In this document: piece after piece, positions 9,121 through 33,098 of the stretch | How the letters are laid out: the number at the start of each line of letters is the position of its first letter | Position numbering within the stretch: the stretch's first letter is position 1 | Assembly: GCF_040675855.1 (NCBI RefSeq) | Contig: NZ_JBEGIK010000001.1 | Location: 930,001-994,000 of the forward strand | Source of the DNA: Microbacterium sp. LWH3-1.2 | GTDB lineage: Bacteria > Actinomycetota > Actinomycetes > Actinomycetales > Microbacteriaceae | Reading direction: 5' to 3' | DNA: 64,000 nucleotides | Made by a program: the position numbers and the translations under genes | Notes under the pieces: model-generated | What the model was told of the DNA's origin: nothing | Database searches by the model: none | What the model saw: only the letters and a program-made list of their open reading frames with translations

Positions 9121-9174
9121 ACGCTACCGGTGTGCCGTTCGGTGGGGATTTCCGCGTTGTGACGAGCGTGTGAC
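9121..9174 (-). promoter_or_regulatory. Promoter and GlnR-like box of uraD-hpxO
   Basis: Read on the minus strand, GTCAC-N6-GTCAC-N6-GAAAT (9174 to 9148) precedes TAGCGT (9126 to 9121). This matches the published actinobacterial GlnR consensus GTNAC-N6-GAAAC with one change in the last half. The GAAAT half ends 21 bases before the -10 box. See the finding on GlnR boxes. Confidence 0.6.
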
Positions 9175-9209
9175 CGTCGCCCGGCCAGGCACCGGAGTGG
9201 GTCCCGCGG

Positions 9210-9824
9210 TCAGCGGTCGGGGTGCACGATGAGCCACTGAGCCACGGCGGGTTCCGTACCGGTGTTGTGGATGCGGTGCGGGCGCGAGCACGGGTAGCTG
9301 ATCGAGTCGCCCGGACGAAGGACCACGCGCTCGTCGTCGAAGTCGATGGTCAACTCGCCCGAGATCATGTTGCCGACCTCGTACCCGTCGTGACGGAACA
9401 GCTCGGTATCGGGATGCGCGGTGCCGCCGGGCGGATAGACGGACTCGAACAGGTCGACGCCGGGCGTCGGGCCGGGTGACAGCCGCCGGAACGCGACGCC
9501 GCTGTCGAGCGTCACGCTCGAGGAGTGGGCGGCACGCTGGAGCGCGAACCCGGCGACGGTCGTGTCGGCCTCGGCGGCACCTCCGGCACGGGCGTCGAAG
9601 ACCGCGGCCAGCGGCACGCCCAGGGCGTCGGTGATGGCGATCAGCCGCGACACGCTGGGCTGCAGCACACCTCGCTCGATCTGCGAGACCGCGCTCGGCG
9701 AGATGCTCAGCGCGTCGGCGAGCGACCGCGCCGACATCCCGCGCTGCAGGCGCAGGTCGCGCAGGCGCGCGCCCACTCCGGCCTGGGTGGCGGCGTCGAG
9801 GACGGCCTCGCGGTCGAGCGTCAT
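9210..9824 (-). CDS. XRE-family regulator with C-terminal cupin domain
   Basis: A 204-residue protein with a helix-turn-helix of the XRE/Cro type at about 18-72 (LRDLRLQRGMSARSLADALSI, then SPSAVSQIERG) and a small cupin_2 barrel at about 125-200 (GYEVGNMISGELTIDFDDE, then PGDSISYPCSRPHRIHN). This architecture senses a small metabolite through the cupin. ATG 9824 has TAGGAT six bases upstream, so it is probably leaderless. It lies between uraD-hpxO and the divergent permease-racemase-allantoinase operon, so it is the likely local regulator, perhaps through the two GTGAAG palindromes nearby. The effector is unknown. Confidence 0.88.
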   Translation of the reverse strand: MTLDREAVLDAATQAGVGARLRDLRLQRGMSARSLADALSISPSAVSQIERGVLQPSVSRLIAITDALGVPLAAVFDARAGGAAEADTTVAGFALQRAAHSSSVTLDSGVAFRRLSPGPTPGVDLFESVYPPGGTAHPDTELFRHDGYEVGNMISGELTIDFDDERVVLRPGDSISYPCSRPHRIHNTGTEPAVAQWLIVHPDR

Positions 9825-9890
9825 GCGTGAATCCTAGCCATCCGCGCCTGGCCGGCGGCCCCGGCTGTCGGACGGGGAACCTTCGCGGCC

Positions 9891-9908
9891 GTGAAGTGTC
9901 AACTTCAC
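9891..9908. promoter_or_regulatory. Palindromic operator, distal copy
   Basis: GTGAAGT-GTCA-ACTTCAC, perfect seven-base arms around four bases. A second palindrome of the same form is centred 52 bases downstream, five helical turns away, which suggests two repressor dimers on one DNA face. Confidence 0.65.
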
Positions 9909-9914
9909 AAACGC

Positions 9915-9957
9915 GTTACAGGGCGGAAACCCGAAGGGAAACGTGAAGCAATAGCTT
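9915..9957 (+). promoter_or_regulatory. GlnR-like box and -10 of the allantoin operon
   Basis: GTTAC (9915-9919), six bases, then GAAAC (9926-9930): an exact GTNAC-N6-GAAAC match. TAGCTT at 9952-9957 follows after 21 bases, the same spacing as at the uraD promoter. This would place the transcript start near 9964, about 90 bases before the permease ATG. The element lies between the two GTGAAG palindromes. Confidence 0.6.
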
Positions 9958-9960
9958 CAC
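9943..9960. promoter_or_regulatory. Palindromic operator, proximal copy
   Basis: GTGAAGC-AATA-GCTTCAC, perfect seven-base arms around four bases. It covers the inferred -10 box (9952-9957), so a bound protein would block RNA polymerase. Confidence 0.65.
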
Positions 9961-10054
9961 TAGCAGCACCACCAGGCCGCGGACTCCACGTCGTGGTCCT
10001 CGCTCACCGTGATGCGGGGCATCCGTCCCCGCTGGGAACCTGGAAGGTACGCGC

Positions 10055-11716
10055 ATGACCCCCACCCCCGAGCAGGCAGCCGCCGCTCCACCCACCGCCC
10101 CGCAGGACATCGTCGAAGCCGCCGGCCACCCGGTCGGCTCGGGCAACATGAAGCCGGAGTACGACCCGCGCCTCGCCAATGAGGACCTCGCGCCGCTGCG
10201 CACGCAGAAATGGTCGTGGTACAACATCTTCGCGTTCTGGATGTCGGACGTGCACTCGGTCGGAGGTTACGTCACTGCGGGCTCCCTCTTCGCGCTGGGC
10301 ATCGCGGCGTGGCAGGTGCTCGTGGCCCTGGTCGTCGGCATCGTCATCGTGCAGGTCTTCACGAACCTCGTCGCCAAGCCGAGCCAGAAGACGGGCGTGC
10401 CCTACCCGGTCGTGAACCGCGCGATCTTCGGCATCAAGGGCGCCAACATCCCGGCGATCATCCGCGGCATCATCGCGATCGCCTGGTACGGCGTGCAGAC
10501 GTTCCTCGCGGCCGAGTCGCTGAACATCATCTTCCTGAAGTTCGTGCCAGGCTCCGAGGCGCTCCTCGAGGTCGGGTTCCTCGGCCTCTCGGCGCTCGGG
10601 TGGATCTCGTACACCATCCTCTGGATCGCCCAAGTGGCGCTCTTCTGGAACGGCATGGAGGTCATCCGCCGGTTCATCGACTGGGCCGGTCCCGCGGTGT
10701 ACGTCGTGATGATCATCCTCGCGGTGTACCTGGTCTCGGAGGCGGGCTGGGAGAACATCAACCTCAACCTGTCGGACCCGGATGCCGCCCCCACCGACTT
10801 CTGGGGCACGATCGGCCTCATGGCCATGGCGGTGAGCATCGTCGTCGCCTACTTCTCGGGCCCGATGCTGAACTTCGGCGACTTCGCCCGCTACGGCAAG
10901 TCGTTCCGCCAGGTCAAGCGCGGCAACTTCTGGGGTCTGCCGGTGAACTTCCTCTTCTTCTCGATCCTGACGGTCATCACGGCTGCGGCGACGGTCCCCG
11001 TGTTCGGGGAGCTCATCGTCGATCCGATCCACACGGTCGAGGCGATCGGGACGCCGTTCGCGATCCTGCTCGGCGGGCTCACGTTCGTCACCGCGACCGT
11101 CGGCATCAACATCGTGGCGAACTTCATCTCGCCGGCATTCGACTTCTCCAACGTCGCACCGCAGAAGATCTCGTGGCGCATGGGCGGAATGATCGCCGCG
11201 GTCGGCTCGGTGTTCCTGATGCCGTGGAACTGGTATTCGAACGCGGATGCGATCCACTACTCGCTGGGGGTGCTGGCCGCGCTCATCGGCCCGCTGTTCG
11301 GGCTGCTCATCGCCGGCTACTACATCGCGGCGCGACAGCGGATCAAGACCGACGCGATGTTCACGATGGACGAGAGCGGTCCGTACTGGTACCGGAAGGG
11401 CTACAACCCCAACGCCCTGAAGACGCTGCTGGCCGCCGGCATCCCCACGGTGCTCATCGCGATCTTCCCGAAGCTGTTCGCGGACCTCGGCCTCTTCGAC
11501 GTCGCCTGGATCAGCAACTACACGTGGTTCATCGGGTGCGGGCTGGGGTACTTCCTGTTCGTGCTCTTCGAGCGCCTCGACCCGCGGGTGCCGACCTTCG
11601 AGGGGGAGACCGACGGGATCTCCGACGGCACGACCGACGGCGCGGCGGCGACGGCCGCGTCGGAGCCGCCCGCGGTCTCGTCCGAGATCCCCGTGGTCGC
11701 CGAGGACAAGGCGTGA
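10055..11716 (+). CDS. NCS1-family nucleobase/allantoin:cation symporter
   Basis: A 553-residue inner-membrane permease with about 12 hydrophobic segments. The N-terminal NEDLAPLRTQKWSWYNIFAFWMSDVHS, split around residues 43-69, is the typical NCS1 entry, followed by VPYPVVNRAIFGIKGANIPAIIRG in the family position. NCS1 carriers import allantoin, hydantoins, uracil or purines with Na+ or H+. As first gene of an operon with racemase and allantoinase, allantoin is the likeliest substrate. GGAAGG lies seven bases before the ATG. The C-terminal tail (about 515-553) is acidic and disordered. Confidence 0.9.
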   Translation: MTPTPEQAAAAPPTAPQDIVEAAGHPVGSGNMKPEYDPRLANEDLAPLRTQKWSWYNIFAFWMSDVHSVGGYVTAGSLFALGIAAWQVLVALVVGIVIVQVFTNLVAKPSQKTGVPYPVVNRAIFGIKGANIPAIIRGIIAIAWYGVQTFLAAESLNIIFLKFVPGSEALLEVGFLGLSALGWISYTILWIAQVALFWNGMEVIRRFIDWAGPAVYVVMIILAVYLVSEAGWENINLNLSDPDAAPTDFWGTIGLMAMAVSIVVAYFSGPMLNFGDFARYGKSFRQVKRGNFWGLPVNFLFFSILTVITAAATVPVFGELIVDPIHTVEAIGTPFAILLGGLTFVTATVGINIVANFISPAFDFSNVAPQKISWRMGGMIAAVGSVFLMPWNWYSNADAIHYSLGVLAALIGPLFGLLIAGYYIAARQRIKTDAMFTMDESGPYWYRKGYNPNALKTLLAAGIPTVLIAIFPKLFADLGLFDVAWISNYTWFIGCGLGYFLFVLFERLDPRVPTFEGETDGISDGTTDGAAATAASEPPAVSSEIPVVAEDKA

Positions 11717-12426
11717 GGATCACCCTCGTCAACCCCAACACCTCCCGGGCGATGACCGCGAAGATCGCGGCCGCCGCCCGGGAGGTCGCGGGGCCCGAGG
11801 TCGAGGTCGTCGCCGTCTGCCCCGACGAGGGGCGGGGGGCGATCGAGAGCCACGTCGACGAGGCGTTCGCCGCCGTCGCGGTGGTCGAGCTGATTGAACG
11901 CGACCTCGCGGACGGGGGCAGCGACGCGTACGTCATCGCATGCTTCGGCGACCCGGGGCTCGATGCGGCGCGCGAACTGACGGAGGCCCCGGTGGTCGGC
12001 ATCGCGGAGGCCGCGATGCACGTCGCATCGATCTCGGGGCGCCACTTCGGCGTCGTGACCACACTGGCGCGCACGCTCGGGCGTGCCCGCGACCTGGTGT
12101 CGCGGTACGGGATGACGCGGGCCTGCGTCTCTCTGGGCGCGTCGGGCATTCCCGTGCTCGACCTCGAGGACACCACTTCCGAGTCCTTCGAGGTGATCGC
12201 CGGACGGTGTCTGGAGGCCGTGGAGCGGGACGGAGCCGACGCGATCGTGCTCGGCTGTGCAGGAATGGCCGACCTGTGCCATGCTCTGGCCGGCCGGGTG
12301 GGCGTGCCGGTGGTGGACGGGGTGGCCGCCGCCGTCGGAATCGCTGCGGGCATGGCGCGGATGGCCGTCGGCACGAGCAAGCGCGACGAGTACGCCCCGC
12401 CGCCTCATCGCGGCCTGCTGGTGTGA
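11713..12426 (+). CDS. hpxA: Asp/Glu/hydantoin racemase family, probable allantoin racemase
   Basis: A 237-residue cytosolic racemase with the two catalytic cysteines of the family, C77 in IACFGDPGL and C182 in LGCAGMADL. The N-terminal ITLVNPNTS is diagnostic of the hydantoin/allantoin racemase branch. It would interconvert R- and S-allantoin so that allantoinase can use all of it. The GTG start overlaps the permease stop (GTGA), giving translational coupling. The assignment to allantoin rather than other hydantoins rests on its place between the permease and allB. Confidence 0.82.
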   Translation: MRITLVNPNTSRAMTAKIAAAAREVAGPEVEVVAVCPDEGRGAIESHVDEAFAAVAVVELIERDLADGGSDAYVIACFGDPGLDAARELTEAPVVGIAEAAMHVASISGRHFGVVTTLARTLGRARDLVSRYGMTRACVSLGASGIPVLDLEDTTSESFEVIAGRCLEAVERDGADAIVLGCAGMADLCHALAGRVGVPVVDGVAAAVGIAAGMARMAVGTSKRDEYAPPPHRGLLV

Positions 12427-12513
12427 CGGTTCATGTCGCCGTAATGACAGGGCATTCCACGGGGACCATCTTCGCGGGATGCTGTGAGGCAGAGCCCGAG
12501 GAGGTCACACGTG

Positions 12514-13905
12514 ATGCAGCTGGGGATCCGCGGCGATAAGAGCGGCCGCATCCAGGCCTCGCGGGCGTGGATCGACGGCGCCTTCCACCCGGCCGACATC
12601 GTGTTCGAGCACGGGGTGGTGACCGCGATCGAGTCGCCCGCGGCATTCGTGCGGGGCGCGGCGATCGTGCCCGACGACGCCGTGCTGCTTCCCGGGCTCG
12701 TCGACTCCCACGTTCACGTCAACGAGCCGGGGCGCACCGAGTGGGAGGGGTTCCGGTCGGCGACCCTCGCGGCGGCGGCCGGCGGCGTGACGACGATCGT
12801 CGACATGCCGCTGAACTCCGTGCCTCCCACGACGACGCCCGAGGCCCTCACGGTGAAACGGGCCGCGGCGAAGCCGGCGGCCTACGTCGACGTGGGGTTC
12901 TGGGGCGGCGCGGTGCCCGGGAACCTCGGCCGGCTGGGCCCGCTGCACGCGGCGGGCGTGTACGGCTTCAAGTGCTTCCTGTCGCCGTCCGGGGTCGACG
13001 AGTTCGGCCACCTCGACCGGTCGCAGCTCGCGGCGGCGATGGAGGAGATCGCCGCGCTCGGCTCGCGCCTCATCGTGCACGCCGAAGACCCCGCCCTGCT
13101 CCACGAGCATGCCGCACTCGGGCGGGGGTACGCGGCGTTCCTGGCGTCGCGGCCCCCCGCGAGCGAGGCGTCCGCCATCGACGCCGTCATCGCCGAGGCG
13201 CGCCGCACGGGTGCGCGGGCGCACATCCTGCACCTCAGCGACGCGCGCTCGCTCCCCGCGATCCGTGCAGCCAAGGCCGACGGGATCGCGCTCACGGTCG
13301 AGACCTGCCCGCACTACCTCACGATCGCCGCCGAGGAGATCCCCGACGGTGCGGCCGAGTTCAAGTGCTGCCCGCCGATCCGCGAGGCCTCCAATCGCGA
13401 CCTGCTCTGGTCGGGCGTCGTCGACGGGACGATCGACGCGATCGTCAGCGACCATTCGCCGTCGACGGTCGATCTCAAGCGCTCCGGGGACGGCGACTTC
13501 GGCCTGGCGTGGGGGGGCATCGCGGGCCTCCAGGTCGGATTGTCAGCTGTGTGGACCGAAGCGCGGAGCCGCGGCATCCCGTTCGAGACGATCCTGCCGC
13601 TGTACACGACGGGGCCGGCCGCGGTGGCCGGGCTCGACGATGTCGGCGTGCTCGAGGTCGGGGCGCCGGCGCACTTCACGGCCTTCGGACTGGACGACCC
13701 GTTCGAGATCCGTGCAGAAGAGCTGCTCCACAAGAACCCGATCACCGCGTACGACCGGCGGCTGCTCACCGGACGCGTGCGCCGCACCTGGCTGCACGGG
13801 CGATCGATCTACGACGTCACCGAAGGCGGCGCGGGAGCGGCGCCCCAGTTCCGCGGGCGACCGCGCGGGCGGCTGCTGAGCGCGGCAGTGCACACCGTCG
13901 CGTGA
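12514..13905 (+). CDS. allB: Allantoinase
   Basis: A 463-residue cyclic amidohydrolase that opens the allantoin ring to allantoate. The metal site is complete: H66 and H68 in DSHVHVNEPG, the carboxylated lysine K153 in YGFKCFLSPSG, H189 in IVHAED, the HILHLSDA block (237-243), and D313 in VSDHSPS. FKCCPPIRE near 283-291 is typical of AllB. GAGGAGG lies before a GTG at 12511 and an adjacent in-frame ATG at 12514. Either may start the protein. About 85 bases separate it from the racemase, so it may also have its own promoter. Confidence 0.94.
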   Translation: MQLGIRGDKSGRIQASRAWIDGAFHPADIVFEHGVVTAIESPAAFVRGAAIVPDDAVLLPGLVDSHVHVNEPGRTEWEGFRSATLAAAAGGVTTIVDMPLNSVPPTTTPEALTVKRAAAKPAAYVDVGFWGGAVPGNLGRLGPLHAAGVYGFKCFLSPSGVDEFGHLDRSQLAAAMEEIAALGSRLIVHAEDPALLHEHAALGRGYAAFLASRPPASEASAIDAVIAEARRTGARAHILHLSDARSLPAIRAAKADGIALTVETCPHYLTIAAEEIPDGAAEFKCCPPIREASNRDLLWSGVVDGTIDAIVSDHSPSTVDLKRSGDGDFGLAWGGIAGLQVGLSAVWTEARSRGIPFETILPLYTTGPAAVAGLDDVGVLEVGAPAHFTAFGLDDPFEIRAEELLHKNPITAYDRRLLTGRVRRTWLHGRSIYDVTEGGAGAAPQFRGRPRGRLLSAAVHTVA

Positions 13906-13942
13906 CGTCGCTTGCTGCACGCGGGGCGCGGACCGCCGGCAC

Positions 13943-14656: not shown

Positions 14657-14765
14657 GGTCGCCCTCCCAGCAGGCCACGAACGGCGGGCAGAGTGCGATG
14701 CCCCGGTCGTCTCTCAGTGTGGCATGCGCGTGCGTCTCCGATGACCCGACCCACTCCACGGTCAA

Positions 14766-14778
14766 TGGGTAGGACCAA
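14766..14778. promoter_or_regulatory. GntR-type operator 1
   Basis: TGGGT-AGG-ACCAA has the TNGGTNNNACCNA symmetry of FCD-type GntR sites. It lies in the divergent region between the GntR gene and the SLC1 carrier. Site 2 carries the same core in the opposite orientation 86 bases away. Confidence 0.55.
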
Positions 14779-14851
14779 TCCGCCGGCCGGTCGAAGACCG
14801 CTTGCGTATCGAGCAGGTTTCGAGGAGTCGGCCTCATGTAAAAACCCCGTT

Positions 14852-22382: not shown

Positions 22383-23000
22383 TCAGGGGCGGAGCGGAAT
22401 CGACAGCGCGCCGGTCATCTCAGCGCCGGGAGAGGCCTCCGAACGCACGGGCGGCACGTAGTCGCGGAGCCGCGCGAGAGCTTCATCGGGCTCGGAGGCC
22501 ACCACGAGCATGTCGGTGTAGCGCGGATGGGTGAAGCCGCGGTCGCGCATGTTCGCGACGAACGCCAGCAACGGGTCGAAGTAGCCGGCGATGTTGAGCA
22601 CGCCGACCGGCTTCTCATGGATGCCCAGCTGCGCCCACGTCCACTGCTCCGTCAGCTCCTCGAGCGTCCCTGGACCGCCCGGCAGGGCGAGGAAGGCATC
22701 CGCGCGGTCGGCCATGATCGTCTTGCGCTCGTGCATGGTGTCGACGAGCACCAGTTCGCTGATCTCATGGTGCGCGTCCTCGCGCGCCTGAAGCGCCCGC
22801 GGGATCACGCCCGTGACGTGAGCTCCGGCCTGCAGCGCCCCATCGGCGACAGTGCCCATGAGACCGACGTGCCCGCCGCCGTACACGAGGTTCATTCCTG
22901 CGCGTCCGATCGCCTCGCCGACCGCTCGGGCCGCCCGCGCATAGACCGGGTCGCTGCCGGGGGACGAACCGCAGAAGACCGTGATCGTGAAGCGTTCCAT
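22383..23000 (-). CDS. LOG family nucleoside 5'-monophosphate phosphoribohydrolase
   Basis: A 205-residue Rossmann-like protein of the LOG (TIGR00730) family, often misnamed lysine decarboxylase. VYGGGHVGLMGTVADGAL is at 39-56, MHERK at 89-93, and the hallmark PGGPGTLEE at 107-115. Members split the N-glycosidic bond of purine nucleoside monophosphates such as AMP or cytokinin nucleotides. TAGCGT lies six bases before the ATG (leaderless), preceded by an exact GlnR-like box with GAAAC 10 bases from the -10. Release of free adenine for nitrogen use is a plausible role here (inference). Confidence 0.88.
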   Translation of the reverse strand: MERFTITVFCGSSPGSDPVYARAARAVGEAIGRAGMNLVYGGGHVGLMGTVADGALQAGAHVTGVIPRALQAREDAHHEISELVLVDTMHERKTIMADRADAFLALPGGPGTLEELTEQWTWAQLGIHEKPVGVLNIAGYFDPLLAFVANMRDRGFTHPRYTDMLVVASEPDEALARLRDYVPPVRSEASPGAEMTGALSIPLRP

Positions 23001-23006
23001 GAACCG

Positions 23007-23038
23007 ACGCTAGGTGGTGGGTGTTTCCATGCCGTGAC
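23007..23038 (-). promoter_or_regulatory. GlnR-like box and leaderless promoter of the LOG gene
   Basis: Minus strand: GTCAC (23038-23034), six bases, GAAAC (23027-23023), ten bases, TAGCGT (23012-23007), six bases, ATG. The box is an exact match to GTNAC-N6-GAAAC. Confidence 0.65.
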
Positions 23039-23073
23039 AGCGCGGGAACATCCGCCGATCATCCTCCTGTGCG

Positions 23074-23934
23074 TCAGCGGGCGGAGGTGGTCATGCCCAT
23101 GCGGGCGAGCACGATGTTCTCGGCGACCTGGACGACGTTGTAGAGCAGCAGCGTCACGATCGTGATCAGGGCGACCGATGCCCACAGCTCGTCGAAGCGG
23201 GCCGAAGCGCTGAACTTCTGGATCATGCCGCCGATGCCCTGACCCGTCGACAGCCACTCGGCCAGAAGCGCACCGGTCACAGCGCCCGGCACCGACACCC
23301 GGGCGGCGGCGAACAGCGACGGGAGCGCACCCGGCACGTTGACCTTGCGCAGCTGTGTGGCCCGGCCGCCGCCGTAGACGTGGACGAGGTCCAGGCTCTC
23401 ATTCGACGCGCGGCTCAGGCCGAACATGATCGAGGCCAGGGCGGGGAAGAGCACCACGATCGAGCCGATGACGGCGACGGATGCGGGAGTCCCGCGACCG
23501 GTGATCAGGATGATGACCGGGGCGATCGCGACCAGCGGCACCGAGCGCAGGAGCAGCGCGAGCGGCATGACGCCCATCTCGACCGACCGCGACAGCGAGA
23601 ACGCGAGGGCGAGCACGATCGCCACGAGCATGCCCACGACGAAGCCGATCGCGGCATCGGCGAGGGTCTGCCCCAGGAGCGGCATCATCTCGGCCCGGTT
23701 CTCGGCGGCTTCGGGCGACGTGAAGAAGAACTCCCACACGTCTGCCGGGCCCTTGGCCACGTACGGCGATATGCCGGTGAGGTTCACCACCGCCCACCAC
23801 AGGGCGAGCACGATGACGAACGTGAGGAGCGCGTTGAGGAGCGACCGGCCGACCGCGCGCGAGATCGCGGTGGCGCGCTTGGCCGTGTGCGGGGCCGCCT
23901 CGAGGGGCATGGCGGCGGGAGCGGTGGCGGTCAT
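23074..23934 (-). CDS. ABC importer permease (second, NMT1-type system)
   Basis: A 286-residue integral membrane protein with about six helices and the BPD_transp_1 coupling-helix region (SNESLDLVHVYGGGRATQLRK, split around VYGGGRATQ) that docks to the ATPase. It is the fourth gene of the SBP-ATPase-permease-permease operon. Its ATG overlaps the stop of the other permease (ATGA). The two permeases are paralogous and presumably form a heterodimer. About 45 residues of polar sequence precede the first helix. Confidence 0.9.
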   Translation of the reverse strand: MTATAPAAMPLEAAPHTAKRATAISRAVGRSLLNALLTFVIVLALWWAVVNLTGISPYVAKGPADVWEFFFTSPEAAENRAEMMPLLGQTLADAAIGFVVGMLVAIVLALAFSLSRSVEMGVMPLALLLRSVPLVAIAPVIILITGRGTPASVAVIGSIVVLFPALASIMFGLSRASNESLDLVHVYGGGRATQLRKVNVPGALPSLFAAARVSVPGAVTGALLAEWLSTGQGIGGMIQKFSASARFDELWASVALITIVTLLLYNVVQVAENIVLARMGMTTSAR

Positions 23935-24739
23935 GCGGCCACCGCCTTGCCTGACACCCAAGGGGTCACCGCGCGCGCGATGAGGCCGACGAGCGCGTAC
24001 CCGATGAGGGCGACGACCGCCGAGAGCAGGAACACCGCCCACACCCGCGCCGAGTCCAGGTCGCCCTGCAGTCGGATCAGCGTGATGCCGACGCCGCGGT
24101 CGGTGCCGCCCATGTACTCGCCGAGGATCGCGCCGAGGAACGCGGACGGCACAGCGATCTGCAGCGCGTTGAGGATCGCGGGAAGAGCGGCGATCAGGCG
24201 CACCTTGCGCAGCTGTGTGAAGCGTGAGCCACCATAGACGCGTACGACGTCGAGGCTCGCCCTGTCGGAGGAGCGGAAGCCCAGCAGCGCGCCGACCACG
24301 GTCGTGAAGAAGACCGCGAGTGCTGCCAGGAAGATCGCGGTGGCGCTCGGGTCGCCGGCGCGCTTGGCCCCGCCGAGCACGACGATCGCGATGCCGCCGA
24401 CCGCGACCACCGGCAGGCAGTAGCTCACCACGGCGATCTGCACGACGATCGTCTCGATACGGGGCAGCAGCAGCACGGTCGCCGCGATGAGCAGGGCCAG
24501 CCCGTTGCCCCACGCGTAGCCGATCGCGGCCTCGGTGATCGTCACCTGGAACACCGACCAGTACGCGGCGAGCCCGTCCTGCCAGATGGTCTGGAACACG
24601 ACGAACGGGGAGGGTACGGGCGTGAACGTCGTTCCCGGCGGCGGCTGGAACACCGTGACCGAGAACAGCCACCACGCGGCGACGAGCGCCGCCGCGCCGA
24701 TGAGCCCCGCGAGCCAGCCCGGGAGGGTGCGCCCGCGCA

Positions 24740-24740
<1 letters not shown>
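23931..24740 (-). CDS. ABC importer permease (first, NMT1-type system)
   Basis: A 269-residue permease of the SsuC/TauC/ThiX group, with about six helices. The coupling motif SDRASLDVVRVYGGSRFTQLRK, split around VYGGSRFTQ, mirrors that of its partner. Its ATG overlaps the ATPase stop. It acts with the adjacent permease in the cytoplasmic membrane to pass the substrate delivered by the lipoprotein at 25632-26753. Confidence 0.9.
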
Positions 24741-25609
<869 letters not shown>

Positions 25610-25631
25610 GATGAAGGCAGCCGTTACCGGA

Positions 25632-26753
25632 CTACGGCAGATAGTCCTTGAGCTCGGGGTTCTCCTCGTAGATCTCGTCGATGATGGTGGTGTCGAAGAG
25701 GTCGTCGATGGAGACATCCCAGCCGGCGGCGGCGAGTGAGGCGATGGTCTGCTCCTTGAGCTCGTCCGAGATCGTGAAGAGGCCGTTGGCCTCCGTCTCC
25801 TCCGTCGAGATCAGCAGCTTCTCGGCCTCGAGGCCGAGGGCGGTCTTCTCGGGATCCAGGGCGCCGAAGACCGCCTCGAGTCCGTCCTCCGACTCCGCGG
25901 CCGCCTGGTTGTAGTACTGCTCGATGAGGCTCACGGTGTCGTCGGTCGACTCCGTGAAGACGTCCGTCCAGCCCTTGATCTCAGCGATGAGGAACGCCTT
26001 GAGCAGTTCCTTGTTCTCGGCAAGGTACTGGTCGGTCACGCTGAACGTCTCTGCGACGTAGGGGACGCCGTTCTCGGCGTACGAGAGGTTGGTGATCTCG
26101 TAGCCGGCGAGCTCGACCGTGAGCGCCTCGTTCGTCAGGTAGGCCATGAAGCCGTCGACCTCGCCGTTCATGAGCGGCGTCGGGTCGAAGTCGACGGGCA
26201 CGACCGTGACGTCGGCGGGGTCGATGCCGTTGGCGTTGAGCAGTGCGGCGAACACCGAGGCGTTCGAGTCCTGCACGCCGATCGTCTTGCCGACGAGGTC
26301 GTCGGGAGTCATGATGTCGGCGCCGTCGGCCAGCGAGAGGATCGTGAACGGGTTCTTCTGGAAGGTCGCGCCGATGATCTTGAGCGGTGCGTCCTCTTCC
26401 GCGATCGCGGCGCCGAGTGACGCGGCGTCGCTCAGGGCGACCTGGACGGTACCGGACAGGAGCTTGGCGACGCCCGTGTCGGGGCCCGAGATGCCGATGA
26501 CCTCGTCGAAGCCGGCCTCGTCGTAGTAGCCGTTCTCGTAGGCGTAGAACTCGCCGGCGAACTCCTCGTTCTTGATCCACGAGTACTGGACGCTGATCTC
26601 GCCGAACGAGGCCCCCTCGTCGCCGCCCTCGGTCGAGCCGGGTGCGGCGGTGCCGCCCGAGGCGCAGCCGGCGAAGACGAGGGCGGAGGCGATGAGCGCC
26701 GCTGCGCCGGCGGCGAGACGGCCGCGCCGCCCCATGTTGCTGTGTCGTGCCAT
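25632..26753 (-). CDS. NMT1/SsuA-like substrate-binding lipoprotein
   Basis: A 373-residue exported lipoprotein with a positively charged N-terminus and a lipobox ending at C30 (ALVFAGC). The mature part, from about residue 50, has the NMT1/THI5-like periplasmic-binding fold seen in importers of taurine, sulfonates, nitrate and pyrimidine precursors ([20 protein letters not shown] region, [11 protein letters not shown]). AAGGGAAG lies nine bases before the ATG at 26753. A double GlnR-like box precedes it, so the substrate is probably nitrogenous, perhaps a purine or pyrimidine, but it is unproven. Confidence 0.88.
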
Positions 26754-26804
26754 CGGGTGTGGCTTCCCTTCATGCGGTGTGGGCACAGTGATGTGATCAC
26801 GCCG

Positions 26805-26858
26805 ACGCTAGGCCTGGCGCGTTTCAGCCGGTGCGTCAGGGTGTTTCGGCGGTGTGAC
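26805..26858 (-). promoter_or_regulatory. Double GlnR-like box and -10 of the ABC importer operon
   Basis: Minus strand, 26858 downwards: GTCAC-N6-GAAAC-N6-ACGCA-N6-GAAAC, then ten bases and TAGCGT (26810-26805). This is the full a1-b1-a2-b2 arrangement published for GlnR, with only the a2 half degenerate. It is the most complete box in the window. Confidence 0.7.
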
Positions 26859-26915: not shown

Positions 26916-29669
26916 TCAGTGCTCGTCGATCCCGTGGATCAGCCGCCAGACCCGCTCGCGGGTGAAGGGCTGGCGGAACGGGCGACGGCCGACCGCGCGC
27001 GCGATCGCATTGCCGACGGCGGCGGCCACGGGGTTGTACGGCGATTCGCTCATCGACTTCGCCCCGAACGGCCCGACCGTGTCGGAGGTGTCGGCGAAGA
27101 GCACCTCCGTGACGGGGATGTCACCGAACTGCGGCACCCGGTACTGCCGGAACGCCGGGTTGGCGACGGCGCCGTCGGGGCCGATCAACACCTCCTCGTA
27201 GAGCGCGCTGCCGAGCCCCTGCGCTGCGCCGCCTTCGACCTGGCCCCGCACCTGCGCGGGGTTCATGAGGTACCCGGCGTCGGCGGCCTGCACCGACTGC
27301 AGCACCCGCACGACGCCGGTCTCAGGGTCGACGGCCACGCGGACCGCGTGGACGTTGAACGACAGGCTGCGTTCGTCGCCGTGCTCGCTGCCACGACCCA
27401 CGAGTCCCGCGAGGGTCCGCTGCTCGGCGGGGGCAGCATCCACGATCTCGTCGAACGTGACGAGGCGCTCGCCGATCTGCACGCCGCGGGCGGCGAGCTC
27501 GGGCTCGACGCCCTCGGGCGAGCCCGCGACGGCATATGCCGTCGCAAGCATGCGACCTCGCAGCTCGGTGCACGCCGCTGTCAGGGCCTTTCCTGCACCG
27601 GTGACCCCAGCCGACGCGAACGCCCCGGTGTCGTGGGCGACCAGGTCGGTGTCGGCGGTACGCAGCACGATGCGCTCGGGCTCGGCGTCGAGCACGGTCG
27701 CCGCGATCTGCCGCAGCACGGTGCTCGTGCCGTTGCCGAACTCGGCGGTGCCGGCCGCAGCGACGATGACGCCGTCGGGCCGCAGCGTCGCGACGGTGTG
27801 GGCGTGGTGCCCGCCGGGGGCCATGGCGGCGATGAACGACAGTGCCATCCCCTCAGCGACGAGCCATCCCTCCGGCGCCTCGACGCCGTTGCCGCGTTGC
27901 AGCGCGGCCTGGGCGTCGTCGAGGCACTGGTCGAGGCCGTAACTGCCCCAGACGAGGTCTTCGTCGTGCTCGTCGCGCACCGTGAGGAGCGGATCTCCCT
28001 CGCGCACGGCGTTGAGGCGCCGAAGGTCGAACGGGTCGATCTGGAGCTTCTCGGCGAGCATGTCCATCGCGGACTCGACACCGAGGATCACCTGCCCCAG
28101 CCCGTACCCGCGGAATGCGCCCGACGGCACCGTGTTCGTGTAGACGACCTCCGCGTCGACGCGCTTCACGGGGCTCCGGTAGACGTTGATCGACTCGGCG
28201 CACCCGTGGAACATGACGCCGATGCCGTGGTTGCCGTACGCGCCGGTGTCGCTCAGCACGTCGAGCTTCACGGCGGTGAGGACGCCGCCCGCCGTTGCCC
28301 CGAGTGTCACCGTCACGCGGAACGGATGCCGCACCGACGCGCGGCGGAACTGGTCGGCGCGCGAGAACTCGTACGCGACCCGGCGGCCGGTGCGCAGCAC
28401 GGCGAGGGCGACGAGGTCTTCGGTGAACATCTCCTGCTTGCCCCCGAACCCGCCCCCGACCCGGGCGGCGAACACACGGATGCGCTCGCGGGGGAGGTGG
28501 AACAGCCGCGACAGCTCGTTGCGCACCAGGAAGGGCACCTGCGTGCTCGACCGCACGACCAGCCGGCCCTCGTCGTCGAGCCAGCCGATCGCGCCGTGCG
28601 TCTCGAGCTGGGCGTGCGCCACGCGGCTCGTGCGCCACGTGCCCGAGACCGTCACGGCGCTCGCCGCGAGCGCGGCGTCCGCGTCGCCGCCGATGCCGTC
28701 ATGCAGGGTTGCGATGACATTGCGGTGCGCCTCGGCGACGCGGTCCTGCGGTCGCCGGTCAGGATGGATCAGCGGTGCACCCGGCCTGCGCGCCTCTTCG
28801 GGATCGAACACCGCCGGCAGAACCTCGTAGGTCACATCGATCAGGCGGCAGGCGGCATCCGCGATCTCGGCCGTCTCGGCGACGACGGCGGCCACCCGCT
28901 GCCCCACGAACCGAACGACGTCGTCGAGCAGACGCGTGTCGTCGGGGTCGTCCTCGCGGAGCTCGTGCCGCGCCGTCGAGTACCGCCGTGCAGTGACGTT
29001 CTCGTGGGTGAAGACCGCGACGACCCCGGGCAGGGCGCGGGCCGCGGCGGCGTCGATGCTCGTGACGCGCGCGTGCGCGTGCGGCGAGCCGACCACCCGC
29101 AGCACGAGCGCGCCGGCGAGGTCGGTGTCGAACGTATACGGCTCGAGGCCCTGCACGAGCCGCCGCCCCGGTTCGGGCCGCGCGGATTCTCCCACGCGGA
29201 GCTCTCCGACGTCCGGGGCAGCCCCGGTCTCGCGCACGGGGCCGAGCACCGACTCGAGGGCCTCGCGGATCGGGCGGTACCCGGTGCAGCGGCACAGGTT
29301 GCCCTTCATGCGGCGATCGAGGTCGGGGAGGTCGCCGGCGCACAGCGTCGACGCCGTCACGGCCATGCCCGGCGTGCAGAAGCCGCACTGGAACCCGAAG
29401 TGCTCGATCAGCGCTTCCTGCACCGGGTGGAGGCGGTCGCCGGACGCGAGACCGGCCGCGGTCGTCACCGAGACTCCTTCGGCGCGAACGGCGGGCACGA
29501 TGCAGGAGTGCATCGGAACGCCGTCCACGAGCACCGAGCAGGCGCCGCAGTCTCCCGCGTCGCACCCCTTCTTCACCTCGTGGTGCCCGCTCTCGCGCAG
29601 CAGCGTGCGCAGGCACTGGCCGGCCCGGGGCTCGACGTCGACGGGCGAGCCGTTGACCTCGAGTCTCAC
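26916..29669 (-). CDS. Xanthine dehydrogenase, fused 2Fe-2S and molybdopterin subunit
   Basis: 917 residues. Residues 1-165 form the 2x[2Fe-2S] unit: C36, C41, C44 and C56 (GCDAGDCGACS block) and C95, C98, C126 and C128 (CGFC and CRC). From about 170 follows the molybdopterin domain: GGGFGGKQE at 405-413, GAFRGYGLGQ, and the catalytic glutamate E875 in GAKSMSESP. The usual GVGE at that place is replaced by SMSE. With the separate FAD subunit this makes a complete hydroxylase, probably hypoxanthine/xanthine to urate given its neighbours. The GTG start overlaps the FAD-subunit stop. Iron-sulfur and molybdenum parts are more often separate genes or joined with the FAD part. Confidence 0.9.
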   Translation of the reverse strand: MRLEVNGSPVDVEPRAGQCLRTLLRESGHHEVKKGCDAGDCGACSVLVDGVPMHSCIVPAVRAEGVSVTTAAGLASGDRLHPVQEALIEHFGFQCGFCTPGMAVTASTLCAGDLPDLDRRMKGNLCRCTGYRPIREALESVLGPVRETGAAPDVGELRVGESARPEPGRRLVQGLEPYTFDTDLAGALVLRVVGSPHAHARVTSIDAAAARALPGVVAVFTHENVTARRYSTARHELREDDPDDTRLLDDVVRFVGQRVAAVVAETAEIADAACRLIDVTYEVLPAVFDPEEARRPGAPLIHPDRRPQDRVAEAHRNVIATLHDGIGGDADAALAASAVTVSGTWRTSRVAHAQLETHGAIGWLDDEGRLVVRSSTQVPFLVRNELSRLFHLPRERIRVFAARVGGGFGGKQEMFTEDLVALAVLRTGRRVAYEFSRADQFRRASVRHPFRVTVTLGATAGGVLTAVKLDVLSDTGAYGNHGIGVMFHGCAESINVYRSPVKRVDAEVVYTNTVPSGAFRGYGLGQVILGVESAMDMLAEKLQIDPFDLRRLNAVREGDPLLTVRDEHDEDLVWGSYGLDQCLDDAQAALQRGNGVEAPEGWLVAEGMALSFIAAMAPGGHHAHTVATLRPDGVIVAAAGTAEFGNGTSTVLRQIAATVLDAEPERIVLRTADTDLVAHDTGAFASAGVTGAGKALTAACTELRGRMLATAYAVAGSPEGVEPELAARGVQIGERLVTFDEIVDAAPAEQRTLAGLVGRGSEHGDERSLSFNVHAVRVAVDPETGVVRVLQSVQAADAGYLMNPAQVRGQVEGGAAQGLGSALYEEVLIGPDGAVANPAFRQYRVPQFGDIPVTEVLFADTSDTVGPFGAKSMSESPYNPVAAAVGNAIARAVGRRPFRQPFTRERVWRLIHGIDEH

Positions 29670-30508
29670 GCCGCGCGCTCCAGGTCCGTCAGCAGCTCCG
29701 AGCGGATCCGCTCGCCGAGCACCACGCTGACGCCGCGCCGCCAGTCGGCCGCACCCAACGGGTCCGAGTAGTAGCCCGCGGCGCCTGAGATCGCCGCGGC
29801 GAGGGTCGCGGCATCCGGGATCCCCGCGAAGCGGAGCACCGTCGGACGCTCCGTCGCAGCCGTCACCACGATCACGCAGGAGCCGTCCTCGTCGAGCCGC
29901 CCCGACACCACGGCGCCCGACCGGCCGTGCTCGGCGAGGGCGATCTTGCGCAGTGCCGTGCGCGCCCGCAGCGCGGTGGCCGGCACGTCGATCGCACGCA
30001 GCACCTCGCTGGGCGCGAGCGCGTTCTCGCCGTTGCCTGTCACCAGGTCGGCGACCGCGACCCGGTACGCCGAGCCGTCGGCGCGCCACACCTCGGCGAT
30101 TCCGTCGAGCGTCACGACGAGTGCCGTCATCGATCCGGCGGCGAACGCGCGGCACACGTTCCCTCCGACCGTGGCGGTGTTCCACACCTTGAACGAGGCG
30201 AGCAGCGCGTGGGCGGCAGGGGGAATGACGGATGCTGCCGCCCATCGCTCCGGCACACGTAGGGATGCGCGACCCTGAGCCCACGCGACGAGTTCGGCGA
30301 TCGTGCAGGTCGCGCCGATCCGCAGGCCTGCGCCCGTGATCTCGAGCGCCGGCCATGCCATCGACGTGAGGTCGACGAACCCCGTCGTGTCGGGCTGGGG
30401 CTCGCTCATGAGCCACGTGCCGCCCGCGATGAACGTCTCGCCGGGAGCGAGTACGAGGTCGTCGCGCGTGCGCGCCCGCCGGAACGAGGTGACCGAGGTG
30501 ATGTCCAC
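29666..30508 (-). CDS. Xanthine dehydrogenase FAD-binding subunit
   Basis: A 280-residue CoxM/XdhB-type flavoprotein. FIAGGTWLMSEPQP near 26-39 is the first FAD loop, ATVGGNVCRAF (about 128-138) the second, and the C-terminal half has the CO-dehydrogenase flavoprotein C-terminal fold. It passes electrons from the 2Fe-2S centres to NAD+ or another acceptor. The GTG start at 30508 has GAGG five bases upstream and lies ten bases after the deaminase stop. Its stop overlaps the start of the fused subunit. Confidence 0.9.
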   Translation of the reverse strand: MDITSVTSFRRARTRDDLVLAPGETFIAGGTWLMSEPQPDTTGFVDLTSMAWPALEITGAGLRIGATCTIAELVAWAQGRASLRVPERWAAASVIPPAAHALLASFKVWNTATVGGNVCRAFAAGSMTALVVTLDGIAEVWRADGSAYRVAVADLVTGNGENALAPSEVLRAIDVPATALRARTALRKIALAEHGRSGAVVSGRLDEDGSCVIVVTAATERPTVLRFAGIPDAATLAAAISGAAGYYSDPLGAADWRRGVSVVLGERIRSELLTDLERAA

Positions 30509-30518
30509 GCGTGCCTCG

Positions 30519-31877
30519 TCAGAGCCGCTCGGCGAGGGTGACGGATGCCGAGGCCACCGCGCGAGCGAGACGGTCCTCGTCGGCGGTGACGAGCGTCGCG
30601 TCCTCGACGACGACGCGTCCGCCGACATACAGGCGCTTCAGCGGCGGCAGCGCGCCGAGCCCGAGGGCGGCGACCGGATCGAGGATGCCGGCATGCTCGA
30701 TCCGGTCGACCTGCCACACCGCGATGTCGGCGAGCTTGCCGGCCTCGAGCGATCCGATCTCCCGCTCCCGGCCGAGTACGCGTGCTCCGCCCATCGTGGC
30801 CATGCGCAGACCGTCGCGCACGCTCATCGAGTCCGATCCGGTGCGCAGGCGCCCCATGAGCACAGCCTCCCGGATCTCGACGCCCAGCTGCCCCGACTCG
30901 TTGGACGCGGCGCCGTCCACCCCGAGTCCCACGGGGGCTCCGGCATCCAGCAGCGCCCGCACCGGTGCGATCCCCGCTCCCAGCCGCCCGTTCGACGAGG
31001 GACAGTGGGCGACGCCCGTGCCCGTCGCCGCGTAACGCGCGATCGCCGGTTCATCGAGGTGCACCGCGTGCGCCATCCACACGTCGTCGCGGAGCCACCC
31101 GAGATCCTCGAGATACTGCGTCGGAGTGCGGCCGAAGTGCTCGGCGCAGTACGCGTCCTCCTCGACGGTCTCCGACGCGTGCGTGTGCAACCGCACCCCC
31201 AGCGACCGCGCCAGCGTCGCCGACTCCCGCAGCAGGTCCGCGGTCACCGAGAACGGCGAACAGGGTGCGATCGCGACGCGGACCATCGCGTCGAACGCCG
31301 GGTCGTGGTACCGCTCGACCGCCTCGTGCGACGCCGTGAGCGCAGCATCCGTCGTCTCCACCGCCGAGTCCGGCGGCAGCCCGCCCTGCGAGACGCCCAG
31401 GTCCATCGACCCGCGCGTCGCGTGCAGCCGGACACCCACCGTCGAGGCGGCGTCGACGATCGCGCCGACGATGTCGCCGGATCCTCGTGGGAAGACGTAG
31501 TGGTGGTCGCCGACGGTCGTGCAGCCCGACCGGGCGAGCACGGCCATCGCCCCGGCGGCGGCCACGCCGGTGAGGTCGGCGTCGATACGCGACCAGAGCG
31601 GATACAGCGCCGTCAGCCAGTCGAAGAGGATCGCGTCCTGCGCGTAGCCGCGCGTGAGCCACTGGTACAGGTGGTGGTGGGTGTTGATGAGGCCCGGGGT
31701 GACGAGGCAGCCGCGCGCGTCGACGAGCTCGGCGCCGTCTCGCAGCGTGGGATCCGCCGGCCCCGCCCCCACCGCGGCGATGCGTCCGTCCTCGATCACG
31801 ACATGCCCGTCGCGATGCTCGGTGCCTGCGGCGTCGACCGTGGCGACGTGCGCGTGCTCGATGATCGTGCGGGTCAT
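30519..31877 (-). CDS. 8-oxoguanine deaminase-like amidohydrolase
   Basis: A 452-residue TIM-barrel deaminase of the AtzB/TrzN/guanine-deaminase superfamily. Metal ligands and catalytic residues: H67 and H69 in NTHHHLYQW, H233 with E236 in HTHASE, H270/H273 in AHAVHLD and D321 in GVDGAASNE. The NTHHHLYQWLTRGYAQ entry resembles characterised 8-oxoguanine deaminases, which yield urate and ammonia. Guanine or another aminopurine remains possible. Its ATG overlaps the xdhC stop (ATGA). Urate made here would bypass xanthine dehydrogenase. Confidence 0.82.
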   Translation of the reverse strand: MTRTIIEHAHVATVDAAGTEHRDGHVVIEDGRIAAVGAGPADPTLRDGAELVDARGCLVTPGLINTHHHLYQWLTRGYAQDAILFDWLTALYPLWSRIDADLTGVAAAGAMAVLARSGCTTVGDHHYVFPRGSGDIVGAIVDAASTVGVRLHATRGSMDLGVSQGGLPPDSAVETTDAALTASHEAVERYHDPAFDAMVRVAIAPCSPFSVTADLLRESATLARSLGVRLHTHASETVEEDAYCAEHFGRTPTQYLEDLGWLRDDVWMAHAVHLDEPAIARYAATGTGVAHCPSSNGRLGAGIAPVRALLDAGAPVGLGVDGAASNESGQLGVEIREAVLMGRLRTGSDSMSVRDGLRMATMGGARVLGREREIGSLEAGKLADIAVWQVDRIEHAGILDPVAALGLGALPPLKRLYVGGRVVVEDATLVTADEDRLARAVASASVTLAERL

Positions 31878-33049
31878 GAGGCTCCTGCCGATGAGACCGG
31901 TGAAGGGACGACGGATGCTGCGCACGACCCCGCGGCGACATCGACGCGCGCGGCGGGGGAGACGTCGACATCGACGGCGGCCGGGTCTGCGGCGGTCGAC
32001 GGACGCCGGTGGAGCGGGCCCGACCGATCCCGCAACGCGACCGCCGAACCGCCGTGACGAGCCGCGATGATCTCGGCGAGCACCGACACCGCGGTCTCCT
32101 CCGGCGTCGAGCCGCCGAGGTCGAGTCCGAGCGGCGCGTGCACGCGGGCGAGGGCGCCCTCCCCGAGGCCGCGCTCCCGCAGCAGCGTTGCGCGGCGCCC
32201 GACGGTCGCCCGCGCGCCCATCGCCCCGACGAAGCCGACGGGCAACGCGAGCGCAGCCTGGAGCGAGGGCACGTCCACGCGCTCGTCGTGCGTCAGGACG
32301 CAGATCGCGGTACGGGCGTCGAGCTTCTCCGGGTCGAGCCCGGCGAGGTAGTCCTGCGGCAGCCCGGCCACGAGCCGCACCGCGTCGGGGAACCGCTCGC
32401 GTGTCACGAGCGTCGACCACACGTCGCACACCTCCACGGCGAAACCGGCCGCGGTCGCCACGCGGCAGAGCACCGCCGCGTGCTCGCCCGCCCCGAGAAG
32501 GATGAGCCGCGGGCGCGGTGCCGACGAGATCGCCAGGACGTCGTGCCCCGCGTACGCACCGGGCAGGACGAGCGAGTCGCGTCTCCCGATCGCCGGAGCC
32601 AGGGTGTCGGCGGCGACAGCGAGGCGCAGCATCCGTTCGTCCATCGTCTCGCCCGCGTGAGGGCCCGACAGCGCCACCCCGACCGTCACCCCGCGTCCGG
32701 CGATGGCCGCCTCGAGAGACTCGATGACGGGGCCTTCCGCACGGACCGGATAGGAGACGACGTCGACGCTGCCGCCGCACGCGAGTCCGGCGGCGTGGGC
32801 GGCGTCGTCCGAGAACCCCAGGCGCGTGGTCTGCGGGCGGCCGGTGAGGCGGGACTGGTGGGCGAGCAGCACGGCGTCTCCCTCGACGCATCCGCCCGAG
32901 ATCGAGCCGATGACGCGACCGTCCGCCGTCACCGCCATCGTCGCGCCGGGGCCTCGCGGCGCGCTGCGCGCGACCCGCGTGACCGTGACCGCGCCGAGCG
33001 GGACCTGCGACCGCAGCAGCGGCAGCAGATCCCGGGCGAGTTCGAGCAT
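31874..33049 (-). CDS. xdhC: XdhC/CoxF-family molybdenum-cofactor maturation protein
   Basis: A 391-residue chaperone that loads sulfurated molybdenum cofactor into xanthine dehydrogenase. The N-terminal XdhC/CoxI domain has SAPRGPGATMAVTADG and SGGCVEGD. The central Rossmann part carries LILLGAGEHAAVLCRVA, and the C-terminal block has GFVGAMGARATVGRR and HAPLGLDLGGSTPEETAVS. It leads the operon xdhC-deaminase-FAD-FeS/Mo. TAGCGT lies six bases before the ATG (leaderless), with GlnR-like halves upstream. The last 60 residues are Ala/Val/Ser-rich and disordered. Confidence 0.92.
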   Translation of the reverse strand: MLELARDLLPLLRSQVPLGAVTVTRVARSAPRGPGATMAVTADGRVIGSISGGCVEGDAVLLAHQSRLTGRPQTTRLGFSDDAAHAAGLACGGSVDVVSYPVRAEGPVIESLEAAIAGRGVTVGVALSGPHAGETMDERMLRLAVAADTLAPAIGRRDSLVLPGAYAGHDVLAISSAPRPRLILLGAGEHAAVLCRVATAAGFAVEVCDVWSTLVTRERFPDAVRLVAGLPQDYLAGLDPEKLDARTAICVLTHDERVDVPSLQAALALPVGFVGAMGARATVGRRATLLRERGLGEGALARVHAPLGLDLGGSTPEETAVSVLAEIIAARHGGSAVALRDRSGPLHRRPSTAADPAAVDVDVSPAARVDVAAGSCAASVVPSPVSSAGAS

Positions 33050-33055
33050 GCGGTC

Positions 33056-33098
33056 ACGCTAGGCGCGCGATGTTTCGCGCGGGCTACGCTCAGGAAAC
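33056..33098. promoter_or_regulatory. Divergent xdhC/MobA-like promoter with mirrored GlnR-like halves
   Basis: Plus strand: GTTTC (33072-33076), six bases, GCTAC (33083-33087), six bases, GAAAC (33094-33098). On the minus strand this reads GTAGC-N6-GAAAC, ten bases from TAGCGT (33061-33056) of xdhC. On the plus strand it reads GCTAC-N6-GAAAC, so one central half is shared. The arms CGCGCGA/TCGCGCG (33064-33081) also form a palindrome. TACGCT at 33085-33090 may be the -10 of the MobA-like gene. Confidence 0.5.

Follow-up and report, generated by a model that had tools for sequence, protein, structure and literature searches.

How do the purine and urate genes of a Microbacterium answer to the nitrogen state of the cell? 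The question is raised by a 64-kb stretch of the genome of Microbacterium sp. LWH3-1.2 (positions 930,001 to 994,000 of contig NZ_JBEGIK010000001.1; hereafter the window), which carries a purine catabolic island. A preliminary description of this stretch reported five GTNAC-N6-GAAAC-like elements, each at a set distance from a TAGCGT or TAGCTT -10 box, and ascribed them to the nitrogen regulator GlnR. All five elements and their distances were found where they had been placed. They precede uraD-hpxO, an operon headed by an NCS1 permease gene, a LOG-family gene, an NMT1-type ABC importer operon, and xdhC. We give a probability of about 0.83 to the reading that the island belongs to the GlnR regulon. 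GlnR would act from a ladder of half-sites ending 10 bp before the -10 box and activate these genes under nitrogen shortage, and an XRE-cupin regulator would add a local layer at the NCS1 promoter.

One register of half-sites ahead of five promoters

The proximal GAAAC of the LOG, xdhC and importer elements ends 10 bp before TAGCGT. The GAAAT of uraD and the GAAAC of NCS1 end 21 bp before TAGCGT and TAGCTT, and the distal GAAAC of the importer ends 32 bp before its -10 box. These values stand, but the three helical positions that the preliminary description read from them do not. The three spacings are one rule, in which up to four G(T/A)NAC half-sites follow one another in steps of 11 bp and the last ends 10 bp before TANNNT (N10). 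Each element is one array of 11-bp half-sites in a single register (Table 1). The array score, from 0 to 16, counts four such half-sites with the last one N10 before TANNNT. It is 13 for uraD-hpxO, where all four half-sites have A at position 4. The same base is found in four half-sites at NCS1 (the first confounded by an overlapping operator), three at the importer, two at LOG and one at xdhC. The a-b box (gTnAc-n6-GaAAc) is exact at NCS1, LOG and the importer, and uraD differs from it in the last base. Before xdhC, the a-site lacks A at position 4, since this genome has GTAGC there.

The window was scanned with this score. At N10, five places reach at least 12 (all 12-13), and these are the five elements above. 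No other place in the 64 kb reaches 10; two of them score 9. When each remaining offset between 0 and 30 was tried (30 in all), three places of at least 12 were found. Two of them, at offset 21, correspond to the uraD and NCS1 arrays shifted by one step, and the one at offset 23 is unrelated and lies inside hpxO (8366, plus strand). Twenty first-order Markov sequences contained on average 0.05 places of at least 12 (maximum 1) and 1.45 of at least 10 (maximum 7), against five and five in the real window. The scan found no in-register array ahead of an NCS2-type nucleobase permease gene (43588-44934, minus strand; PF00860).

A fixed spacing to the -10 box would also be expected if GAAAC-N10-TAGCGT were the promoter of an alternative sigma factor, for instance the -35 and -10 pair of an extracytoplasmic function (ECF) sigma factor. 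A distance of 10 bp is too short for such a pair, and the idea was rejected on this spacing. Moreover, GAAAC stands 21 and 32 bp before the -10 box as well and has GTNAC halves ahead of it, and the -10 box varies (TAGCGT, TAACTT, TACSGT) as it does for the housekeeping sigma factor. We regard a sigma-factor origin of the pattern as highly improbable.

Evidence from the genome and from relatives

The genome outside the window was covered by pattern searches and by 14 individual stretches. In 3.94 Mb there are 18 exact copies of GTNAC-N6-GAAAC, against one occurrence of the control pattern written backwards, which places the motif above background. Three of the 18 copies fall in the window (binomial 0.003). 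Outside it, the spacer of GAAAC-N-TAGNNT has 10 bases in 6 of 39 rows (1.3 expected, P 0.0015), and 10, 21 or 32 bases in 11 of 39 (3.8 expected, P 0.0009). Of the 15 exact copies outside the window, three are followed by TANNNT after 10, 21 or 32 bases (chance about 0.0004).

The same search in the genus gave, among the matches listed, N=10 in 23 of 127 rows from 27 genomes (4.1 expected, P 2e-11, a value that is too small since related genomes are not independent). Among these matches, N=21 was found in 10 rows, N=7 and N=29 in 8 each, and N=32 in 5 (4.1 expected each), the last count not being significant. The rows cover 27 of the 38 other genomes, and some are orthologous promoters that were also scored separately. 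Another 23 rows, out of 150 listed, were excluded as matches of unchecked identity that come back in the same or nearly the same form. Many genomes of the genus share GAAAC...TAGCGT strings of 27 and 33 bases that are alike or almost alike, frequently in pairs, and these strings resemble a repeated element or an rRNA operon.

Exact copies of the motif also precede nitrogen genes outside the island, namely the glnA, amtB and nas genes at which the preliminary description had proposed to test for enrichment (nas is used here for a molybdopterin nitrate-reductase-type gene). The glnA ladder is complete and in register, with GTAAC, GAAAC, GATAC and GCAAT followed at N10 by TACCTT (score 14). At nas, GTGAC, GAAAC, GGAAA and GGAAC are followed at N10 by GACCAT, a -10 box that departs from TANNNT, 7 bp before ATG (score 13). 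The phosphoenolpyruvate carboxylase gene ppc (L158:522, genome C1:3261694) has GTCAC-N6-GAAAC-N10-TAGCCT 6 bp before ATG (score 10), a possible carbon-nitrogen link under GlnR. GAAAC-N6-GACAC-N10-TAGCGT (score 12) lies ahead of a gene for an UrtB-like permease (L161, genome C1:1588540; below the UrtB cut-off), and among the matches listed identical or near-identical strings occur in G028, G027, G009 and G035. An M20 peptidase gene scores 9. Together with nirB, these ppc, UrtB-like permease and M20 peptidase genes are possible members of the regulon; the sites of nirB, ppc and the UrtB-like permease are weaker than that of glnA or incomplete. A short-chain dehydrogenase (6), an endonuclease/phosphatase family protein (9) and a polyprenyl synthetase (8) were rejected for their low array scores, despite GAAAC-N10-TAGNNT ahead of their genes. 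Neither L023 (score 8, GAAAC at N32) nor trmD (GAAAC at N12) was taken into the regulon.

The GlnR homologue that the preliminary description called for is encoded in the genome (L001). The protein matches GlnR_1st (PF21695, 5.5e-43) and the C-terminal winged helix PF00486 (7.9e-29), a domain with 14 matches genome-wide. Its solved relatives are 8hih (1.5e-77) and 8hig (1.1e-75), which are titled transcriptional regulatory protein or OmpR family regulator and which we take to be GlnR entries, and 4o1h, titled GlnR (3.1e-26). By eye, the gene lies directly before a polyphosphate-kinase-like frame. Another protein (L014) is a fusion of uroporphyrinogen-III synthase and a winged helix, and is presumably NnaR-like. 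The GlnR gene, the motif above background and its copies before glnA, amtB and nas support the earlier proposal that a GlnR homologue would activate purine nitrogen use.

The arrays might instead be bound mainly by another OmpR-family regulator, above all MtrA, or be shared by MtrA and GlnR as in Streptomyces. The genome encodes a clear MtrA (L002; NF040689, 387 bits against a cut-off of 300). A review describes MtrA as sometimes competing with GlnR for nitrogen genes, and reports overlap between the sites of PhoP and GlnR at glnA, glnII and amtB (PMC10704036). The same source, however, assigns GlnR the decisive role, and the half-sites found here match the GlnR consensus that it quotes. The downstream genes are nitrogen genes, glnA, amtB and nas included. 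We consider the MtrA alternative improbable, with some shared use possible.

Orthologous promoters from 59 genomes of the genus, with the own genome counted, were scored at N10 with a threshold of 11. Rows with a score of at least 11 numbered 15 of 24 for xdhC, 11 of 18 for the importer, 8 of 12 for NCS1 and 4 of 29 for uraD. Summed over the remaining 16 offsets between 4 and 20, such rows numbered 0, 2, 0 and 3, respectively. NCS1 rises to 9 of 14 when two added rows are counted (L135 scores 11 and L152 scores 4). Rows left out were 6 of 30 for xdhC (C-terminal fragments whose genes are already represented by the N-terminal part), 1 of 30 for uraD (partial), 12 of 30 for the importer (at most 40% identity) and 18 of 30 for NCS1 (fragments or distant); L135 and L152 belong to these 18 but do possess a start. 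In seven xdhC rows, the position of the start is an extrapolation from a match to the C-terminal part. Half-sites are more conserved than spacers at the importer (0.87 vs 0.68, 8 of the 18 rows) and at NCS1 (0.86 vs 0.74, 10 of the 12 rows). At LOG, two close orthologues (83% identity) retain the site, the start spacing and N10, and the site is not kept in the eleven distant homologues examined. In one genome (G018, locus L169), the LOG promoter region carries a second GAAAC-N10-TAGCGT on the opposite strand, and locus L168 reads nearly alike; one stretch may serve two divergent GlnR promoters there.

The xdhC loci of named records extend this comparison. Among the matches listed, 26 of 47 score at least 11 at N10 and none does so at the other 16 offsets. 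Microbacterium accounts for 30 of the 47, the closest of those listed being M. ureisolvens (84%). No array was found at eight Streptomyces/Kitasatospora loci, one Paenarthrobacter and one proteobacterial locus among these matches, and two Isoptericola loci have GAAAC with no TANNNT in place. One record titled Planococcus sp. (L235), a Bacillota name, carries an actinobacterial xdhC with a Microbacterium-like promoter, possibly a matter of naming or contamination.

Several points weigh against the GlnR reading. The half-site score is simple and was devised after the sites were known, so the better tests lie outside the window. Over the whole genome, 11 of the 18 exact copies are not followed by TANNNT within 84 bases, and several copies appear, by eye, to lie inside genes. 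The amtB promoter is out of register (best score 9 even with a loose -10), nirB scores only 9, and a trmD-like gene (by eye; L028, genome C1:2900622) has exact GTCAC-N6-GAAAC out of register at N12. The own xdhC array has only one half-site with A4-C5. The uraD register is kept in just the four rows given above, with half-sites barely more conserved than spacers (0.56 vs 0.50, 8 chosen rows of the 29). The NCS1 row L152 is out of register, and conservation of NCS1 half-site 1 is confounded by the overlapping operator 1. In a survey of the class, the motif excess is uneven, and the control exceeds the motif in some GlnR-bearing genomes (33 vs 4 in G070; 42 vs 4 in G223). The survey offers no contrast for correlating the motif with GlnR: GlnR_1st is matched at E 0.001 in 193 of 197 genomes (190 above the cut-off), and the four genomes with no match (G107, G114, G145, G189) consist of several hundred contigs each. 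Finally, when one mismatch is allowed, the window holds no excess of the motif by itself, with 8 copies against an expectation of 5.6, and 17 of 100 shuffled sequences have at least as many. This count is what chance matches in GC-rich DNA would produce, but the 18 exact copies against one, the single register and the cross-species conservation make chance a barely credible explanation. The register, not the motif alone, is the strong part of the evidence.

At xdhC, the preliminary description had accepted GTAGC as a GTNAC half with one mismatch. The GAAAC at N10 holds, and the GTNAC half is doubtful. GTAGC lies on the reverse of TACGCT, which is present in 10 of 10 loci inspected, and the a-site of most scored relatives reads GTAGC, GTAGT or GTATT on this divergent TACGCT. 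A MobA-like open frame starts 3-9 bases behind TACGCT in seven of the ten loci (L204, L206, L210, L214, L217, L219, L220); in the remaining three, the distance from TACGCT to the start of the frame is 1, 33 or 40 bp. TACGCT is probably the -10 box of the divergent MobA/MocA-like gene. Since it looks like a divergent -10 box, which explains GTAGC at least as well, GTAGC cannot count as a GlnR half-site. The xdhC element, and with it part of the NCS1 element, might be no GlnR array. The conserved feature would then be the promoter and start region of the divergent gene, or a local operator such as the one that contains NCS1 half-site 1. Against this, GAAAC stands exactly 10 bp before the xdhC -10 box in many species, as at the other targets. 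We judge this alternative unlikely, though it deserves serious weight.

Two operators at the NCS1 promoter and the genes of the island

The NCS1 promoter carries two operators, which are the only perfect copies of GTGAAG-N6-CTTCAC in the genome. They lie 52 bp apart with the GlnR array between them, and operator 1 takes in half-site 1 of that array. At one mismatch, the full pattern is no commoner than its control. In nine of 11 NCS1 promoter rows, the own included, a pair of copies, neither with more than one mismatch, is spaced by exactly 52 bp; one row has a single copy and one has none. With the two added rows (L135, 52 bp; L152, 53 bp), the spacing of 52 bp is found in 10 of 13. A divergent XRE-type frame lies upstream at the same place in all 11 loci, the own included. 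Its product, the XRE-cupin regulator, is the likely binder of both operators and would repress the NCS1 promoter.

The gene functions of the island (Table 1) fit a nitrogen regulon. The names xanthine dehydrogenase, XdhC and NCS1/allantoin permease rest on Pfam and context, with NCBIfam matches below their cut-offs; for the frame at 26916..30416, the best NCBIfam model is XdhA (472 bits, cut-off 780). The cytokinin-LOG model NF058542 matches the LOG protein below its cut-off. The racemase-like gene would by its context encode an allantoin racemase.

Table 1. Arrays, operators and genes in the window (positions in the window; half-sites in 5' to 3' order of the array)
Feature	Positions	Strand	Remarks
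GlnR-type array, uraD-hpxO	9137..9174	-	GTCAC 9170-9174, GTCAC 9159-9163, GAAAT 9148-9152, CGAAC 9137-9141
-10 TAGCGT, uraD-hpxO	9121..9126	-	last half-site 10 bp ahead
GlnR-type array, NCS1 permease	9904..9941	+	TTCAC 9904-9908, GTTAC 9915-9919, GAAAC 9926-9930, GGAAA 9937-9941; score 13
-10 TAGCTT, NCS1 operon	9952..9957	+	in register with array
GlnR-type array, LOG	23023..23060	-	GTCAC 23034-23038 and GAAAC 23023-23027 good; upstream GTTCC, GATCG weak
-10 TAGCGT, LOG	23007..23012	-	6 bp before ATG
GlnR-type array, importer	26821..26858	-	GTCAC 26854-26858, GAAAC 26843-26847, ACGCA 26832-26836 (weak), GAAAC 26821-26825
-10 TAGCGT, importer operon	26805..26810	-	in register with array
GlnR-type array, xdhC	33072..33109	-	GAAAC 33072-33076 good; GTAGC 33083-33087 on reverse of divergent TACGCT; GTTTC, GAGCG weak
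-10 TAGCGT, xdhC	33056..33061	-	6 bp before ATG
TACGCT region, candidate -10 of divergent gene	33083-33098	+	overlaps xdhC array
Operator 1 GTGAAGTGTCAACTTCAC	9891..9908		perfect GTGAAG-N6-CTTCAC
Operator 2 GTGAAGCAATAGCTTCAC	9943..9960		perfect GTGAAG-N6-CTTCAC; covers -10
XRE-cupin regulator gene	9210..9824	-	HTH_3 and Cupin_2; divergent from NCS1 operon
hpxO, FAD-dependent urate hydroxylase	7383..8576	-	NF033623 559.9 bits, cut-off 500
uraD, OHCU decarboxylase	8573..9097	-	PF09349 1.3e-40; TIGR03180 168.9 bits, cut-off 139.4
NCS1 permease (cytosine/purine/allantoin class)	10055..11716	+	PF02133 3.9e-79; NCBIfam ncs1 and allantoin permease models below cut-offs
Asp/Glu/hydantoin racemase-like gene, start uncertain	11719..12426	+	PF01177 7.1e-55, residues 504-710 of frame 10210-12426
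Allantoinase AllB	12484..13905	+	TIGR03178 502 bits, cut-off 358
LOG-family protein (nucleotide phosphoribohydrolase type)	22383..23000	-	PF03641 1.1e-43; TIGR00730 199 bits, cut-off 96
ABC permease, second	23074..23934	-	PF00528 1.4e-16
ABC permease	23931..24740	-	PF00528 3.8e-14
ABC ATPase	24740..25717	-	PF00005 4.7e-32
NMT1-type substrate-binding protein	25632..26753	-	PF09084 2.2e-37 for open reading frame 25632-26786
FeS and Mo-binding parts of xanthine-dehydrogenase-type molybdenum hydroxylase, start of frame uncertain	26916..30416	-	PF02738, PF20256, PF01799
FAD subunit, molybdenum hydroxylase (xanthine dehydrogenase type)	29666..30628	-	PF00941 3.9e-15
8-oxoguanine deaminase type amidohydrolase	30519..31877	-	NF006055 640.6 bits, cut-off 532
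XdhC/CoxI-family maturation protein	31874..33049	-	PF13478 3.3e-32, PF02625 9.4e-19; NCBIfam XdhC models below cut-offs
MobA/MocA-like gene	33138-33692	+	divergent from xdhC

Proposed regulation and comparison with known systems

Nitrogen shortage is known to activate GlnR in this family (PMC10704036). In the mechanism that we propose, the OmpR-type GlnR, encoded elsewhere in the genome, would be activated in the same way and fill the tandem half-sites, up to four of them head to tail, the final one stopping 10 bp short of the -10 box. GlnR on this ladder would take the place of the -35 element, contact polymerase and aid transcription start. The preliminary description had derived polymerase contact from the fixed phasing. 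It does not follow from phasing alone, but it fits the published complex of GlnR and polymerase, with which the N10 register is compatible.

The units switched on would be uraD-hpxO, the presumed operon of NCS1 permease, racemase and allantoinase genes, LOG, the NMT1-type importer and, less certainly, the unit of xdhC, deaminase and xanthine dehydrogenase genes. LOG would free the base from the nucleotide, and the deaminase and xanthine dehydrogenase would deaminate the base and oxidise it to urate. HpxO and UraD would oxidise urate, and the NCS1 permease, racemase and allantoinase would import and open allantoin or a purine. Since the -10 boxes of LOG and xdhC end 6 bp before ATG, their mRNAs are predicted to be leaderless, given the usual spacing from a -10 box to the transcription start.

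At NCS1, the operators flanking the array would form a second layer, which would let the promoter combine the global nitrogen state with a local purine signal. A bolder view gives GlnR of the genus one rigid grammar, a ladder ending 10 bp before the -10 box and often serving leaderless genes. The NCS1 ladder would be locked between XRE-cupin operators about five helical turns apart, one of them over the -10 box. The promoter would then work as an AND gate whose two inputs are nitrogen hunger and purine supply, with the local regulator covering or looping out the GlnR site. We see even chances for this view.

GlnR control of purine and urate use is already published for M. smegmatis, and the original parts here are the sharper promoter rule and the two-operator layout. 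With the single register, a loose 16-bp consensus becomes a predictor of GlnR activation at the level of the promoter, and the operator pair gives a testable two-input promoter. The control of purine nitrogen by GlnR would extend to an island with a xanthine-dehydrogenase operon, an uncharacterised importer and LOG, which suggests nitrogen-scavenging roles for them. Among the papers listed for GlnR with xanthine dehydrogenase and for GlnR with Microbacterium, none treats this subject, judging by titles. The words xanthine, purine, allantoin and uric are absent from the S. venezuelae GlnR paper (PMC3087709).

The closest known system is the GlnR regulon of M. smegmatis. Chromatin immunoprecipitation peaks of its GlnR include cytosine/purine and xanthine/uracil permeases and a putative allantoicase (PMC3662644). 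A table of wild type and glnR mutant lists uricase, transthyretin and xanthine-uracil permease, and growth on uric acid and guanine is described as GlnR-dependent (PMC4222082). Nitrogen limitation raises the expression of the guanine deaminase, uricase, transthyretin and OHCU decarboxylase genes (PMC4617892). The likeness lies in GlnR at purine/urate genes and permeases. Unlike in M. smegmatis, the island described here includes an xdhC/xanthine-dehydrogenase operon, an HpxO-type urate hydroxylase, LOG and the NMT1 importer, and adds a hard register from array to -10 box and a local XRE-cupin layer.

In the GlnR activation complex (Shi et al. 2023, as described in PMC10704036), four DNA-binding domains are arranged head to tail on four sites. 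The a2 site is described as not required at the nas promoter of A. mediterranei (PMC10704036). The weak ACGCA of the importer array would fit such a dispensable a2.

The pho box bound by PhoB, a regulator of the OmpR/PhoB family, is likewise built of 11-bp repeats. In E. coli, it usually lies near the -10 box, in place of the -35 element (PMC4971064). The arrays of the island would be alike in this replacement of -35, and differ in the regulator, the signal and the half-site.

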